The translations under genes were made by a program, and so were the position numbers. Source: Candidatus Doudnabacteria bacterium (GTDB lineage: Bacteria; Patescibacteriota; Doudnabacteria; UBA920; 2-01-FULL-46-14). From it: 40,455 nucleotides of DNA. The DNA lies in NCBI GenBank assembly GCA_023246055.1, contig JAHFJD010000003.1:1-40455 (forward strand). Reading direction: 5' to 3'. This document shows, piece after piece, positions 1,021 to 19,522 of the stretch (positions are counted from its first letter, which is position 1; each line of letters opens with the position of its first letter). Below the pieces are notes generated by a model. It saw nothing but the letters and a program-made list of their open reading frames with translations. It made no database searches and was not told the DNA's origin.

Positions 1021-1218
1021 TGATTTTACTGGAAAGACTCACGAGATTTTAGTGATTGATGATAAAACAAGTTTCACGGTTCAACTCTTGAATTGATACT
1101 GACACTGCTGTCTGAAAGTGGCTTTACAACCACCTCGAACCTACTTGTGGTTAGCGGGTTCGAATCCATTTAGCAAAAAATGCTAATGTTGACGAACGCC
1201 TCCGCATCCGAGAGAGGA

Positions 1219-1349: not shown

Positions 1350-1383
1350 TTCCAAGCGAGAACGTCAGCACGACTACATGTGC

Positions 1384-1407
1384 TATTAGCATACTAGTAT
1401 GCTAATA
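1384..1407. repeat. Perfect palindrome TATTAGCATACTAGTATGCTAATA, copy 1
   Basis: Read directly; self-reverse-complementary over 24 bp. Confidence 0.9.
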
Positions 1408-1640
1408 CTGTCCTGGTACATTGACCGTAAGTAGAAACAATAAATCTATAAGTTGCTTGAAGTGGAAGCGGACTGATGTCTGCTCTGACTTGCCTGCCTT
1501 GGGCATGGCTTCGGCAGGCGGCGGCAAAAATCGTCGGCGACCATGGGTTTCAAAAAAGAGACAAAGCTGATAAAATTGGATGAGAAATGCTTGACCCACC
1601 TCCCGCGCGCGCATTTCTCAAACTTTTGAACTCCTCAAAG

Positions 1641-2327
1641 ATGAATTCTCAAACTTCTCAAATGCGGAAATATCAAAAAATTATTGAATATGTCTGGCTT
1701 GTCATAATCATTGCACTTTTTGTTATTTCGGTTCAGATAATAAAAAGTGGCTCTTTGGAAAATCAAGTTTATTCTTTTGGCATTTGGGCACCAATTATTT
1801 TTGTCTTACTAAAAATATCTACCTTGGTTATTGCACCCTTAAGCGGGACTCCGCTCTACTTCGTGGCTGGTAGTCTTTTTGGGCCTTACTACGGGCTAAT
1901 TTTGTCCCTTGTTGGAGATGTTTTGGGCTCGACAATATGTTTTTTCTTGAGTAAATTCTATGGACATAGGATAATAAAAATCTTTGCGGGAGAAAGATAT
2001 TTTGGGAAAATAGTAAACACAGTATCGATATTAAAAAATACCAAGTCGTTTATAAAAGCTAGGGTGTTATTCATTGGAATACCGGAAATATTGGCATATG
2101 CCAGCGGATTAAGCAAAATAAATTTTTTCGCTTTTTCTTTAATAAATATTTTGTTTTATCTGCCAGTTGATTTTACATTTGTATTTTTTGGTTCTGAAAT
2201 TATAAGAATTATAGCTAAACATTCAATTTTGTTTTATTCCGTTGTCTTGCTTATCTCCGTCGCTGGGTTTTGGTCTTTGCAAAACGACTATAAGCATGAA
2301 AAGTTGGATAATATGCAAGGAATGTAA
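1641..2327 (+). CDS. VTT/DedA-like (TVP38/TMEM64 family) membrane protein
   Basis: ORF 1587-2327, likely start at internal ATG 1641 or 1662; multiple TM segments; PLSGTPLYFVAGSLFGPYYGLILSLVGDVLGSTICFFLSKFYG is typical of the VTT domain. Confidence 0.75.
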   Translation: MNSQTSQMRKYQKIIEYVWLVIIIALFVISVQIIKSGSLENQVYSFGIWAPIIFVLLKISTLVIAPLSGTPLYFVAGSLFGPYYGLILSLVGDVLGSTICFFLSKFYGHRIIKIFAGERYFGKIVNTVSILKNTKSFIKARVLFIGIPEILAYASGLSKINFFAFSLINILFYLPVDFTFVFFGSEIIRIIAKHSILFYSVVLLISVAGFWSLQNDYKHEKLDNMQGM

Positions 2328-2332
2328 TTATT

Positions 2333-2749
2333 ATGAAAAATGAAAATTTTTTAAAAATTGTTTTAAAAATTTCAGCCATATTTCTATGCTACTTTACGCC
2401 TTTGTTTTTGCTTGTAATTTCAGATGTCGGTAGCCGTTTATTTCAAGAAGGAACATTTTTGGGCGAGGCGATTGTTCGTCATCCCTACCAATGGGACTAT
2501 GAATTGATGTTTGCCGGACTTTATTTTGTTTGGGGTATATTCGTTTGGAAAGCCGCAAAAAATCCAAAAGAAAATTTAAGTTTTATTAAATTCACTGCAT
2601 GGGGATTTTTTGCAAATGTTGCAACAAATATCCTTGTCGGCTTATTTAGAACAAAAGAACTCACACATTTGGCTGCCGATAGTATTCCTTGGTTAGTTTT
2701 GGGATTATTGATTTTTTATTTCAGTAATAGATTTACGACTAAACTATGA
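2333..2749 (+). CDS. Hypothetical multi-pass membrane protein
   Basis: 138 aa, about four hydrophobic segments, tightly packed with neighbours (overlaps next start). Confidence 0.65.
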   Translation: MKNENFLKIVLKISAIFLCYFTPLFLLVISDVGSRLFQEGTFLGEAIVRHPYQWDYELMFAGLYFVWGIFVWKAAKNPKENLSFIKFTAWGFFANVATNILVGLFRTKELTHLAADSIPWLVLGLLIFYFSNRFTTKL

Positions 2750-3219
2750 GAGAAATTATTAAAGAACCGAACGAAATACTACATAAAAAATGCGAACCAG
2801 TTGTAGATTTTGAAGAAGCAAGAAAAATTGCTGGCGATTTATTGCAGGTAATGAAATCAATACCTGTTAAATTTTTAATTTGGAATCGCTGGATAGGTTT
2901 TGCCGCAAATCAAATCGGATATTCAAAAAGAATCATTGCATTAAAAAGAGGCAAAAACAAATACGAAATTTTAGTTAATCCGGTTATCGTAGAAAAAAGG
3001 TTTCCATCTTTGCAACCAGAATCGTGTTTTAGTTTGAACAGAAAACGTCTTTTACAACGCTTCTATCTTGTCAAAAGGTATTTATGGACGAAAGTTAAAT
3101 ATCAAGATTTGGAAGGCCAGCCGCACGAAATAGTTTTGAAAGGTCCTAATGCAATTTATCAAGAAATTGATCACATTAACGGAGTAATGATTCCCGAAAT
3201 AGGATTTCGAATTTTGTAA
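2746..3219 (+). CDS. Divergent peptide deformylase-like protein
   Basis: Motif I GFAANQIG, motif II ESCFS (Cys ligand kept), motif III QEIDH instead of HEIDH. Confidence 0.75.
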   Translation: MREIIKEPNEILHKKCEPVVDFEEARKIAGDLLQVMKSIPVKFLIWNRWIGFAANQIGYSKRIIALKRGKNKYEILVNPVIVEKRFPSLQPESCFSLNRKRLLQRFYLVKRYLWTKVKYQDLEGQPHEIVLKGPNAIYQEIDHINGVMIPEIGFRIL

Positions 3220-3335
3220 ATTTAGGGCGTTGATAGTCAATGCCGCGCGGTGGGCAGATAGGGGCCATGACTTTTTCAACTCCAGCCGAAGCCGTATCAG
3301 GGGAGGTAAGCTCGCACAGTCATCAACACGGCTAC

Positions 3336-3371
3336 ACGCGCTATCACCATACTAGTATGCTAATAGCGCGT
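3336..3371. repeat. Imperfect 36-bp palindrome, copy 2 of the ATACTAGTAT family
   Basis: acgcgctatcaccatact|agtatgctaatagcgcgt, two mismatches per arm; flanks resemble copy 1. Confidence 0.85.
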
Positions 3372-3504
3372 TGGTACATCTACCGCGGAAGGCTAAACAT
3401 TAAATCTAAAAAATCCTAAATGCTCTGTGCAGGGATCGAATCCTGATCGTAGAGCCGATTCGGATCGGATCACTACGGGGCAGGCCTGCAACTTCTATTC
3501 AAAT

Positions 3505-3577
3505 TGGGTCGCCTGGGAATCGAACCCAGAACCTTATCCTTAAGAGGGATCTGCTCTGCCAATTGAGCTAGCGACCC
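3505..3577 (-). tRNA. tRNA-Lys(CTT)
   Basis: Reverse complement GGGTCGCTAGCTCAATTGGCAGAGCAGATCCCTCTTAAGGATAAGGTTCTGGGTTCGATTCCCAGGCGACCCA; cloverleaf stems pair; anticodon CTT; CCA not encoded. Confidence 0.93.
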
Positions 3578-3642
3578 ATGCTTCGTCAACACTTCGCATG
3601 GCAAGACCGTGAACTAACATAAGCTTACTATGGCACGCCTCG

Positions 3643-3750: not shown

Positions 3751-3792
3751 AACCCTACCCTTATGTGCTCCCCACCCGCCTGCCAGTGCCAA

Positions 3793-3864
3793 TGCCCCCA
3801 GAGGGAATCGAACCCCCATTTCTAGTTCCGAAGACTAGCGCTCTATCCGTTGAGCTATAGGGGC
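3793..3864 (-). tRNA. tRNA-Arg(TCG)
   Basis: Reverse complement GCCCCTATAGCTCAACGGATAGAGCGCTAGTCTTCGGAACTAGAAATGGGGGTTCGATTCCCTCTGGGGGCA; full cloverleaf; anticodon TCG. Confidence 0.93.
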
Positions 3865-3954
3865 ACAGGCATTGGCGGGCAGGAGTCTGTCGTGATATCC
3901 ATTTCAACACGAGGGTACATTTAAATAACCCCCTAAAGTATAATTTTTTTATGG

Positions 3955-12312: not shown

Positions 12313-14481
12313 TTATTTTCCCTGGCATGTCTTCTCTAATTGAGCGAGGAAAGTTTGCGCATCGGCCGCGAATTTTGGTTCTAGTACAATAGCTGCTTGG
12401 GCATGCTGACGAGCTGATTTGAGATCGCAAATCTGCCCAAAGGCATTGGCGAGATTGGCTTCTTCCTGCATTGTCAATTTATGTTCCCAATTTTTAAGCT
12501 CTCGGAGTTCCTGCTCCGCGATATCCGGCCTTCTCGAATAAATAGCTGCCATCAAATAATTAAGATGTGACTCTTTGGGTTGTGGATTGAGCGCCACGGC
12601 CTTGCGGAAATACTCCAAAGCGTCCTCGGTTCGTCCGATCAGCAGCGTTGCCTGCCCCAGTTCGAAATAGATTTGCATGCGGGTTGGCGAAAGGATTGTC
12701 GCCTGTCGGCCGAGATCAAACACCCGGTCAATCTTGTTCGTGCGCTGGGCGGTGGCATTGTAAAAATTCATGAGGTAGAGGTGATTCTTTGTATCTAGAG
12801 GAGACGCAACCAGATTTTTCTCGAGCTCGCTCGATATGAAAGCTATCAAGGTATTCTGCTGATCTGCCGTGAGTTTCCCGCTCGAGTTTGCTTGTCGAAA
12901 GTAATCCACCATATGCTGGCGAATTTCCTCATCCATATAAGTGCCATAGGATAAAGCTTTGCGAAATCCCGGTTCGAGAGCTTGGTATTGCCCTTCACGA
13001 ACGCTTTTGATGGTGGTAATCGCCGCGTGGTTTGCAAGCGCGGGACGGACGTTGACAAAATACCCAGCCACTACCATTACCAAAGCAACCACTACCAAAG
13101 CCGGAAGCTCGGCATCATACTGTCGCCCATTTGATACTCTGGCCTGGGTAAGCTCCGTATTCTCCAGGAACACCAAATGAGCGAGCACTAAAAAAAACAT
13201 TAAATAAGTGGCATGCGTGTCAAAAACAAATAAATTTTGCACAAAATACCCGACAAGCAAAGCGGCCAAAATCACGGCCGATCGCGCAGGCAGCTTGGGA
13301 GCACGAAAAAGACGATATAAAATCCGAAAGCTGATGTAAAAAATCCCGAAGTAGACAATGATTCCGACGATTCCCGACGTAACCGCCACATCAAGGACGG
13401 TGTTGTGTGCGCGATCAAACCAGATTTGACTGCCGGCCGCTTTGAAAATCCGCGGCGGAAAATATTTGTTGAAAGCGATATTGTAATTTTCATAGCCATA
13501 GCCCGTCCAAAACCGATCCTTCCACCCAAGCCACGATGCTTTCCATGTGTCAAGACGTGATTGCGTGGTGATATCATTGATGGAAATGCGCAAAATCCGG
13601 CGCACCACAACAATCTCTCTCACGCGCTCCGGAAAAATCTGGGGCTTGAGAATCAAAATTGTGGGAATCAAAACCATAAACGCCCCAAGCACCGCGGCTA
13701 TCATCTTCAATGCTCGTGCTTGGCCACGCAAAGCATGAAAAACAACCAGAATAAAGACTCCGATATATAATGCGATTGCCCCACCCCGAGTTTGCGTGGA
13801 CACGAGGAGCAGAGCGTTAAAAATCGCATTTGAAAAAAACACAAATTTTACCAAGCGATTTGTTGACTCAAACCCGAGAAGCAGTGAAAGGAACATTCCA
13901 AAAAGCATAAACGCCGCATAAAAAGCGGAATTGCCGATTGTCGCGGAAATCCGGCTCCCCTGCGCTGGCGGGACAAAGGTACAGAGTCCGTTATAATTCC
14001 CCGGCCCGCAAACCATCTGCCCAATACTTAACACCCCGGTAAAGCTTATAACAATAAGCGCGACTGTGATATACCGCCGCCAATCTCGCTTGCTCTGGAA
14101 GACAGCAGTAAGCATGCTGAAATAAACACCAAAATGGAGCATTGTGAGCACGCCTTCGCCTCTTTCCAGGGTACCCCAAAAACTTTTGTAAAAATTGACG
14201 CCAAAAATACTCATCACTAGCATCACCCCGAGATATATCCAAACCATTCTGGTAAGCCAATTCCATTGCGGCCGCAAACCTGGGTATTTAAGCGCCAATG
14301 GCAGGTAAAAAACTAGCGCGAGTTCCACGCCCAGACGGAAATAGACGACTTTGCTTGTGATAAATGGGAACAAAAAACCGCTCCACACCCAAATCGGGGT
14401 CAGAAGGAGCGCAAATAAGACAAATTTCAAAATTTTATAGAGAATTTTTGTTTCGTATCCGAGGTTTTGTTCTTTTCCCAT
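12313..14481 (-). CDS. O-antigen ligase (Wzy_C)-like membrane protein with C-terminal TPR region
   Basis: About 12 TM segments, FWTGYGYENYNIAF and FDRAHNTVLDVAVTSGIVG motifs; helical repeats (YFELGQATLLIGRTEDALEYFRKAVALNPQ). Confidence 0.88.
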   Translation of the reverse strand: MGKEQNLGYETKILYKILKFVLFALLLTPIWVWSGFLFPFITSKVVYFRLGVELALVFYLPLALKYPGLRPQWNWLTRMVWIYLGVMLVMSIFGVNFYKSFWGTLERGEGVLTMLHFGVYFSMLTAVFQSKRDWRRYITVALIVISFTGVLSIGQMVCGPGNYNGLCTFVPPAQGSRISATIGNSAFYAAFMLFGMFLSLLLGFESTNRLVKFVFFSNAIFNALLLVSTQTRGGAIALYIGVFILVVFHALRGQARALKMIAAVLGAFMVLIPTILILKPQIFPERVREIVVVRRILRISINDITTQSRLDTWKASWLGWKDRFWTGYGYENYNIAFNKYFPPRIFKAAGSQIWFDRAHNTVLDVAVTSGIVGIIVYFGIFYISFRILYRLFRAPKLPARSAVILAALLVGYFVQNLFVFDTHATYLMFFLVLAHLVFLENTELTQARVSNGRQYDAELPALVVVALVMVVAGYFVNVRPALANHAAITTIKSVREGQYQALEPGFRKALSYGTYMDEEIRQHMVDYFRQANSSGKLTADQQNTLIAFISSELEKNLVASPLDTKNHLYLMNFYNATAQRTNKIDRVFDLGRQATILSPTRMQIYFELGQATLLIGRTEDALEYFRKAVALNPQPKESHLNYLMAAIYSRRPDIAEQELRELKNWEHKLTMQEEANLANAFGQICDLKSARQHAQAAIVLEPKFAADAQTFLAQLEKTCQGK

Positions 14482-14532: not shown

Positions 14533-14558
14533 GTATTAGCATACTAGTATGCTAATAC
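14533..14558. repeat. Perfect 26-bp palindrome GTATTAGCATACTAGTATGCTAATAC, copy 3
   Basis: Read directly; lies between divergent genes. Confidence 0.92.
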
Positions 14559-14644: not shown

Positions 14645-14911
14645 ATGTCCACACGTCCCCCAAACCAGAGCCAGCAGCCCGAAAAGTTTGGTGACTTGAA
14701 GGCAACGGACAGGTTCAAACCTGTCATCAGAAAACTCACACAAGCAGAAACACCGGTGCACACAAAACTGCCGGGCACATGCACGACCCCTGATGGCCGC
14801 CAAAAAGGAACTGCAATGATTGATGATTATGGGGAAAAAAGGAAAGATGGCGGCGGCCGCAACGGCGAACTCGTGGATTTGAATAACGACGTCCCTGTCA
14901 TCAGGCTATAG
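14645..14911 (+). CDS. Small hydrophilic hypothetical protein (88 aa)
   Basis: SD-like aaggag upstream of ATG; followed by a terminator hairpin; no overlapping alternative gene. Confidence 0.6.
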   Translation: MSTRPPNQSQQPEKFGDLKATDRFKPVIRKLTQAETPVHTKLPGTCTTPDGRQKGTAMIDDYGEKRKDGGGRNGELVDLNNDVPVIRL

Positions 14912-14973: not shown

Positions 14974-15810
14974 TCAGACCGCCAATAAAACGATTCCACC
15001 AATCAGCAAAACAAGAAGAGAAGCTTTGAAGGCAAAATTTTTCTCGGAAAAAACGAATTGGCCGGAGAGCATGGACCAGGTTGTGGCGCTCGAGCGCTTG
15101 ACGGCCATGATGATCGAGGCTGGTGCGAACGGATAAGCAAAACTTTCGACCGCTCCAGCGAAGCCCTGGATCAAGGATTGGAAAAAGAAAATGCGGCTTG
15201 AAAACATGCGCTTAAAATTATTCTTTCCGGAAAACATTAACCCAGCGATCCAAAAATAAATCAGTAAAATGACAGTGATGATCAGCTGCTCCGCTTCTAC
15301 AGAATTGTAGTGGGTAATATCGTATTTGAATAGCGACGTGGTCGCTGCTGCGTTCACGGCAGTTGCCAGCACTAGCCAACGGCCTTTCTTGCCAACCTTG
15401 TCGCTCAAAAAAATAACCAGTAAGGTAAAAGCAATCACGCCTATTCCGAAAATTTGGTGCGAGGAGAGCGCATACCCGAGGAGTAGATCAACACAAAGGA
15501 GCAGCGGCATGGTCAGAACGCGAATGAATCCATAAGTGCTGCGATCAGCGCGGATGATAGCCAGCATCATTAGATGAGTCTGGACAATTTCGAGAATAGC
15601 CCGAGGGATAAATGTTGGCAGACTCCCGATACTAAATGCAAATGTAGATTTGTAAATCACGACCGCGAGAAATATCACCCCAGCCCAAAAATAATTGAAA
15701 AATCCCATGGCCAAGGCATCCTGCCTGCCCATACCCGCCTGTTTTTTCCCGACAAGGTCGCCAATTTCGCCAAAAAAAGTTGCCAGCGATGTCAAAAGAA
15801 TTCCTAACAT
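14974..15810 (-). CDS. EamA/DMT-like transporter
   Basis: About 9-10 TM segments; internal pseudo-repeat layout; C-terminal FAYPFAPASIIMAVKRSSATTWSMLSGQFVFSEK. Confidence 0.7.
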   Translation of the reverse strand: MLGILLTSLATFFGEIGDLVGKKQAGMGRQDALAMGFFNYFWAGVIFLAVVIYKSTFAFSIGSLPTFIPRAILEIVQTHLMMLAIIRADRSTYGFIRVLTMPLLLCVDLLLGYALSSHQIFGIGVIAFTLLVIFLSDKVGKKGRWLVLATAVNAAATTSLFKYDITHYNSVEAEQLIITVILLIYFWIAGLMFSGKNNFKRMFSSRIFFFQSLIQGFAGAVESFAYPFAPASIIMAVKRSSATTWSMLSGQFVFSEKNFAFKASLLVLLIGGIVLLAV

Positions 15811-15824
15811 AGTTCCAGTATAAC

Positions 15825-18772: not shown

Positions 18773-19522
18773 TTAAACGGGTTTATAATTATTATCGTCA
18801 AAAACTGGAATGAGATGGCGAATCGAGTTGCCGTATTTGGAATAAGCCAGCCGCTGGAGATTAAATTTCTGGAGAATCGGGTGAAACCAGCCGGGAAGGA
18901 CATTGTTAAATTTGACCTCAACCACTACACCATCCTGGTAGATTTTTGCCGCATGACCTGGCGGCGAGATAAAATCGAACTGCTCGCGGGACTCGATATT
19001 CTCGTCCACTGTGACGCGAAACTCCCGATTCCGTTTTGAGAGGAGCGCATACCGGATATAAGAGATGAAGATCTTAGGACGCAAGGAGTTTCGGCGCGTG
19101 AACCAAGCAATCTCTTGCATGAATTCGTTGTCACGATTGGCCTTGTGCATATCCAAGAATTTCTTCTGTAATCTAGGCCCACCGGCATCGCCCAACCGCA
19201 GATTCACACGGTCCTTGATGACCAGCTCGTTCTGTTTGCGTTTGAGTTCTGCATAGATCTCGGTATCAGGCGAAAGAGTATCGCCATAGTAGCGAAGTCG
19301 CAATTTTTTCCGATCTGCTACCCCGGCCTCCTTATCCCAAAAACAGTCAAAACCCGGAGTATCATAATACAGGCTGTTAACCCGGTACCAACCCTGACCA
19401 TTCGTACCATATGGATCCCAGATCATGTGCGGGCGCAGAGCAGACACAAGTGGTCTGGCGTGGGATCGCGGTAAAAAATATTTGAACTCAAATCTCTGAA
19501 AATGTAACGTTGGTTTGGCCAT
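18773..19522 (-). CDS. VTC domain (polyphosphate polymerase-like) protein
   Basis: RFEFKYFLPRS, YRVNSLYYDTPGFDCFWDK, KKLRLRYYGD, IYAELKRKQ motifs. Confidence 0.88.
   Translation of the reverse strand: MAKPTLHFQRFEFKYFLPRSHARPLVSALRPHMIWDPYGTNGQGWYRVNSLYYDTPGFDCFWDKEAGVADRKKLRLRYYGDTLSPDTEIYAELKRKQNELVIKDRVNLRLGDAGGPRLQKKFLDMHKANRDNEFMQEIAWFTRRNSLRPKIFISYIRYALLSKRNREFRVTVDENIESREQFDFISPPGHAAKIYQDGVVVEVKFNNVLPGWFHPILQKFNLQRLAYSKYGNSIRHLIPVFDDNNYKPV

Follow-up and report, generated by a model that had tools for sequence, protein, structure and literature searches.

Palindromic repeats flanking an AT-rich gene islet in a Doudnabacteria genome are predicted operators of a TrpR-family repressor

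The window analyzed here, 40,455 nucleotides in length, is contig C49 of a 1.16-Mb genome (67 contigs, 93% complete) from an uncultured Candidatus Doudnabacteria bacterium. Near its beginning lies an islet of three genes on the forward strand, encoding a VTT-domain membrane protein (PF09335; 1587-2327, GC 34%, with 1641 or 1662 as possible alternative starts), a DUF6632 membrane protein (PF20337; 2333-2749, GC 33%) and a peptide-deformylase-like protein (PF01327; 2746-3219). Two tRNA genes on the reverse strand, tRNA-Lys(ctt) at 3504-3578 and tRNA-Arg(tcg) at 3792-3865, adjoin the islet, as the preliminary description had stated, and are kept beside each other and the pil genes. The same description had judged by eye that the islet is richer in AT than its flanks, and the computed composition agrees: GC content is 33.2% at 1587-3219 compared to 47.1 ± 1.9% (minimum 42.5%) in 707 other windows of equal length, and its tetranucleotide distance of 0.51 exceeds every other value on the contig (at most 0.35). 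By eye, an inverted repeat, GAGAAATGC ... GCATTTCTC, is visible at 1581-1620, just upstream of the VTT gene.

The deformylase-like protein carries QEIDH instead of HExxH as its metal-site motif, and the longer form YQEIDH is found both in this protein and in its two relatives from Nomurabacteria and Taylorbacteria (L036 8001-8447; L037 8001-8438). Active deformylases have a metal-binding HExDH motif; in the YQEIDH proteins the first histidine is replaced by glutamine and the ExC cysteine is retained. Judging by these residues, they possibly form an altered or inactive deformylase subfamily. The relatives of this gene detected by protein similarity are from metagenome-assembled genomes of Patescibacteria, and since they lack VTT or DUF6632 genes nearby, we rejected the idea that the islet is an operon conserved elsewhere.

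The islet looks horizontally acquired, because the three other members of the family lack any match to the VTT gene and because the islet is missing from the tRNA/pil locus of a relative, G002. There, pilMNO, tRNA-Arg and tRNA-Lys keep their order, and no islet adjoins them. The tRNA pair of G002 is followed by two unrelated genes, which from their translations we take to encode a small HTH protein and a HolA-like protein. The tRNA pair also adjoins pilMN in G006.

Two related segments in direct orientation, both read on the forward strand, enclose the islet at 1365-1457 and 3323-3411. The relatedness noted earlier is significant, with 79% identity over 63 bp and 76% over 89 bp (E 6e-12), or 76-79% over about 87 bp including a shared palindrome. 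The left segment contains this palindrome and a right flank common to both copies. Outside of the palindrome, the right flanks are clearly related (score 19 versus 8.4 +/- 1.6 for shuffled sequences, 0 of 2000 shuffles reaching it), reading TGGTACATnnACCG...AAACAwTAAATCTAwAA, and the left flanks show no relatedness above chance (0.20). Each segment contains a 26-bp dyad site: CTATTAGCATACTAGTATGCTAATAC at 1383-1408 (core 1390-1401) in the left segment and a second copy at 3341-3366 (core 3348-3359) in the right one, between the convergent deformylase-like and tRNA-Lys genes. A third copy occurs at 14533-14558 (core 14540-14551), between divergent ORFs and 65 bp from the nearest start, with a Wzy_C gene (12313-14481) on one side and an 88-aa ORF (14645-14911) on the other. 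Short fragments resembling tRNA T-arms, GGGTTCGAATCC and GGATTCGATCCC, also flank the islet at 1156-1167 (forward strand) and 3432-3443. They are possibly decayed tRNA genes; neither the Rfam covariance model nor ARAGORN at default thresholds called a tRNA in them.

Altogether, the core CATACTAGTATG has 16 copies in the 1.16-Mb genome, distributed over contigs C4 (four copies), C31 (three), C49 (three), C23, C30, C37, C50, C52 and C58, whereas the reversed control pattern has none. This 12-mer has no copy in 39 relatives. The consensus of the sites, GTATTAsCATACTAGTATGsTAATAC, is dyad-symmetric. When the 32 half-sites are stacked on the center, they read AGTATG-S-TAATA-S-C-R-Y and become degenerate past position 16; their first six positions are invariant in a set that was gathered by the core itself, and a looser 18-mer search likewise returned perfect cores only. 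Most copies have only the dyad in common and differ in their flanks, and near-perfect palindromes of greater length occur on C50 and C52. The arms vary independently, likeness within a copy being no higher than between copies (permutation fraction 0.66 at positions 14-22), so base pairing is not what preserves the dyad, which resembles a protein-binding site. A hairpin RNA or single-stranded DNA element was rejected on the lack of arm covariation, folding z values of -0.95 and -2.0 and the absence of any Rfam match. Terminators were rejected as well, as no T-run follows either islet palindrome; one weak site was seen elsewhere in the region. A viral origin was discarded with zero matches to the site in IMG/VR.

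All 16 sites are intergenic or, in one case, overlap a start codon, in scanned sequence that is 89.5% coding. They are not enriched near gene starts, with 53% located within 150 bp of a start compared to 60% of random intergenic positions; a uniform promoter-operator role is therefore not demonstrated. Placement between convergent genes, which includes the copy at 3348, accounts for 2 of 15 sites versus 12% of random intergenic positions. The sites are strongly clustered, with five gaps under 2 kb, a pattern matched by none of 20000 random placements. Two further observations concern individual palindromes. On C31, a 219-bp exact direct duplication (13892-14110 and 15596-15814; L040 4892-5110 and 6596-6814) has its left end at the palindrome edge, a weak hint that recombination may have passed through the palindromes at least once. 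In another genome of the order, an agmatine-deiminase-like gene contains an ACTAGT palindrome with extended arms (G044:C22; L198 1832-1843) and has no insertion relative to solved homologues.

The copy at C4:17734 covers the -10 box and the ATG of a gene encoding a TrpR-family protein (PF01371), hereafter trpR. Its promoter reads TTGACA-N17-TACCATACTAGTATG, and the final ATG, inside the palindrome, starts a 103-aa protein (MVKARQQ...). We rejected a start codon within the palindrome as a rule for all copies, because a long ORF begins in this way only at trpR. The same -35 box recurs at a second copy located after the gene, at C4:18110, and two more copies at 18985 and 22054 complete a group within 4.5 kb; such a local cluster at a predicted target gene is seen around trpR only. 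Among 140 relatives searched, orthologues of this protein are 41-55% identical and have the same TRGSRE-type recognition helix. In five other genomes of the same order (G043, G044, G037, G027 and G008), YRYACTAGTRYR is located within about 150 bp upstream of the trpR orthologue; these genomes contain only 2-9 such sites each, and we estimate the chance of this placement at about 2e-4 to 1e-3 per genome. The geometry is also retained in two of them: trpR of G043 has TTGACA-N17-TAGCATACTAGTATG with the identical CATACTAGTATG 12-mer and the ATG inside the site, while that of G044 has TTGAAA-N17-TACTGTACTAGTACA with the same arrangement of -35 box, -10 box and operator. The pairing of this protein with ACTAGT sites is not exclusive, since G003 has three good ACTAGT-type sites and only a HisR-type TrpR was found there. 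G025 encodes a TrpR of the C4 type and has no exact ACTAGT site.

The genome encodes two PF01371 proteins, at C4:17788 and C18:7121. The second is HisR (TIGR02531, YerC/YecD; 90.3 bits versus a cut-off of 42.2) and belongs to a his cluster, hisR-hisD-hisC-hisB(N)-hisG-hisS (L181 1726-7411), in this small Patescibacteria genome. The site TTAGCATGTTAACATGCTAA precedes both hisR and hisS and has two further exact copies on C27 and C37. Its arms are those of the sites in the window (TTAGCATACTAGTATGCTAA), and only the six central bases differ, GTTAAC instead of ACTAGT. The hisR gene of G003 has the same kind of site. Overall, a dyad site was found in the regulator's own promoter at trpR of the present genome (G000), G043, G044, G037, G027 and G008 and at hisR of G000 and G003. 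HisR operators are described as 20-bp palindromes with a lineage-specific consensus, which is cacTTTAnnnnnnTAAAgtg in Firmicutes, and the TrpR motif is given as TGTAcTnGTnnACnAgTACA; Patescibacteria are not mentioned in that work (PMC9413887). YerC-type genes of other Patescibacteria (L107, L108, L109 and L111) have ACTTTAnnnnnnTAAAG-like promoter sites that match the Firmicutes consensus.

On the basis of the copy in the trpR promoter, the sites and geometry conserved at trpR orthologues, and the presence of a HisR with sites having the same arms, we propose that the repeats, with the consensus given above, serve a TrpR-family repressor as operators. We consider this reading about 80% probable, the binding itself being predicted from sequence. 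A PF01371 dimer, or tandem dimers, would bind the dyad, and the TrpR-like protein of C4 appears to be the likeliest binder. From the promoter geometry we infer that this protein would occlude the -10 box and the start codon of its own gene and thereby repress it, probably when an amino acid or a related small molecule is bound. HisR, the paralogous second regulator in the his operon, would act at the sites with the same arms and a GTTAAC center. Support for an operator function is good at trpR, and at most other copies, including those of the islet, such a function is putative. Of the islet copies, the first precedes the VTT gene by about 190-260 bp and could control it, and the second, between convergent genes, has no obvious promoter to control.

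The Escherichia coli TrpR operators at trp, aroH and trpR are CTAG-containing dyads with CTAG-like steps at 8-bp spacing, and TrpR regulates its own gene through an operator over the -10 box. The C4 protein has the same PF01371 fold and a TRGS-type recognition helix, and a profile of its group matches structures of E. coli TrpR across the full domain (E 3e-8). The sites described here also contain CTAG in a dyad with CTAG-like steps at this spacing, and their position at trpR points to a similar autoregulation. However, they are longer, symmetric, centered on CTAG rather than TTAA, and dispersed in 16 copies, and no trp operon was seen adjoining any of them. Moreover, the C4 protein scores below the TrpR equivalog cut-off (TIGR01321, 37.4 versus 67.25 bits). 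The HisR systems (PMC9413887) resemble the present one in palindromic, lineage-specific operators and in autoregulation, and the genome itself encodes a genuine HisR, with a his operon and with the operator arms in common. In contrast, the sites in the window are ACTAGT-centered and go with the non-HisR paralogue.

The preliminary description had likened the layout to a cassette or small island between recombination sites, loosely in the manner of integron attC or tRNA-proximal islands. The AT-rich foreign block between direct repeats and beside tRNA genes, the T-arm-like fragments on both sides and the G002 locus without the block all fit such a scheme, and a probably acquired islet by the tRNA genes is supported by the VTT gene and by G002. 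A role of the repeats as recombination sites is not supported: they are two of 16 dispersed copies, diverged from each other by 21-24%, the trpR copies have the geometry of operators, and the copies across the genome are not tied to AT-rich cassettes. Integron cassettes likewise have direct-orientation repeats around genes, but an attC identity was rejected because the RYYYAAC and GTTRRRY cores are absent from both repeats, and no integron integrase was found. Two tyrosine recombinases are encoded on C39 and C30 and none on C49, in line with the earlier statement that no integrase is seen in the window, and the sole full-length one (C39) is Xer-like, with 231/223 bits for XerC/XerD and 105 bits against the integron integrase cut-off of 265. 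A tRNA-directed island with tRNA-derived attachment sites was also rejected, as the 3' ends of tRNA-Lys and tRNA-Arg are not repeated in 1000-1600, the contig lacks an integrase, and only T-arm-like fragments, not recognized as tRNA by the covariance model, are present. We regard movement of the islet between these repeats as highly improbable.

Under an unlikely but somewhat more credible alternative, the palindrome would be a REP/MITE-like intergenic repeat, dispersed and possibly mobile, that happens to resemble or has captured a TrpR-family site, has spread by copying or recombination, and is mostly non-regulatory. Its random-like intergenic placement, which extends to convergent regions, would be natural for such a repeat, as would the strong clustering, the C31 duplication beginning at a palindrome, the flank sequence shared by the C49 pair, and the long palindromes on C50 and C52. 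REP elements are similarly dispersed, intergenic, palindromic and lineage-specific. However, their RAYT partner has no counterpart here: Y1_Tnp (PF01797) has no match in the genome at E <= 0.01, while control genomes were positive, and RAYT/IS200 repeats were rejected on this ground. The absence of arm covariation, the restriction of similarity to the dyad in most copies, the G044 copy inside a coding gene without an insertion, and the location kept at orthologous trpR promoters also argue against a mobile element.

The operator interpretation removes a tempting cassette reading of the repeats and extends a known kind of regulator to Patescibacteria, a poorly studied group, with an unusual number and placement of sites. 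Few pairs of regulator and site are known from Patescibacteria, and in the literature on CPR regulons and operators we found none. The operator interpretation also poses the puzzle of why one TrpR-family protein should have 16 sites in a 1.2-Mb genome. As a speculation that we consider rather improbable, the protein may have changed from an operon repressor to a chromosome-wide binder of dispersed sites with an architectural or domain-marking role, its clustered intergenic sites not being tied to promoters and being set apart from those of the HisR paralogue only by the six central bases of operators that are otherwise identical. With two paralogous TrpR-family repressors whose predicted operators have the same arms and are distinguished by an ACTAGT or GTTAAC center, this single genome offers a test case for how TrpR-family proteins separate their sites.
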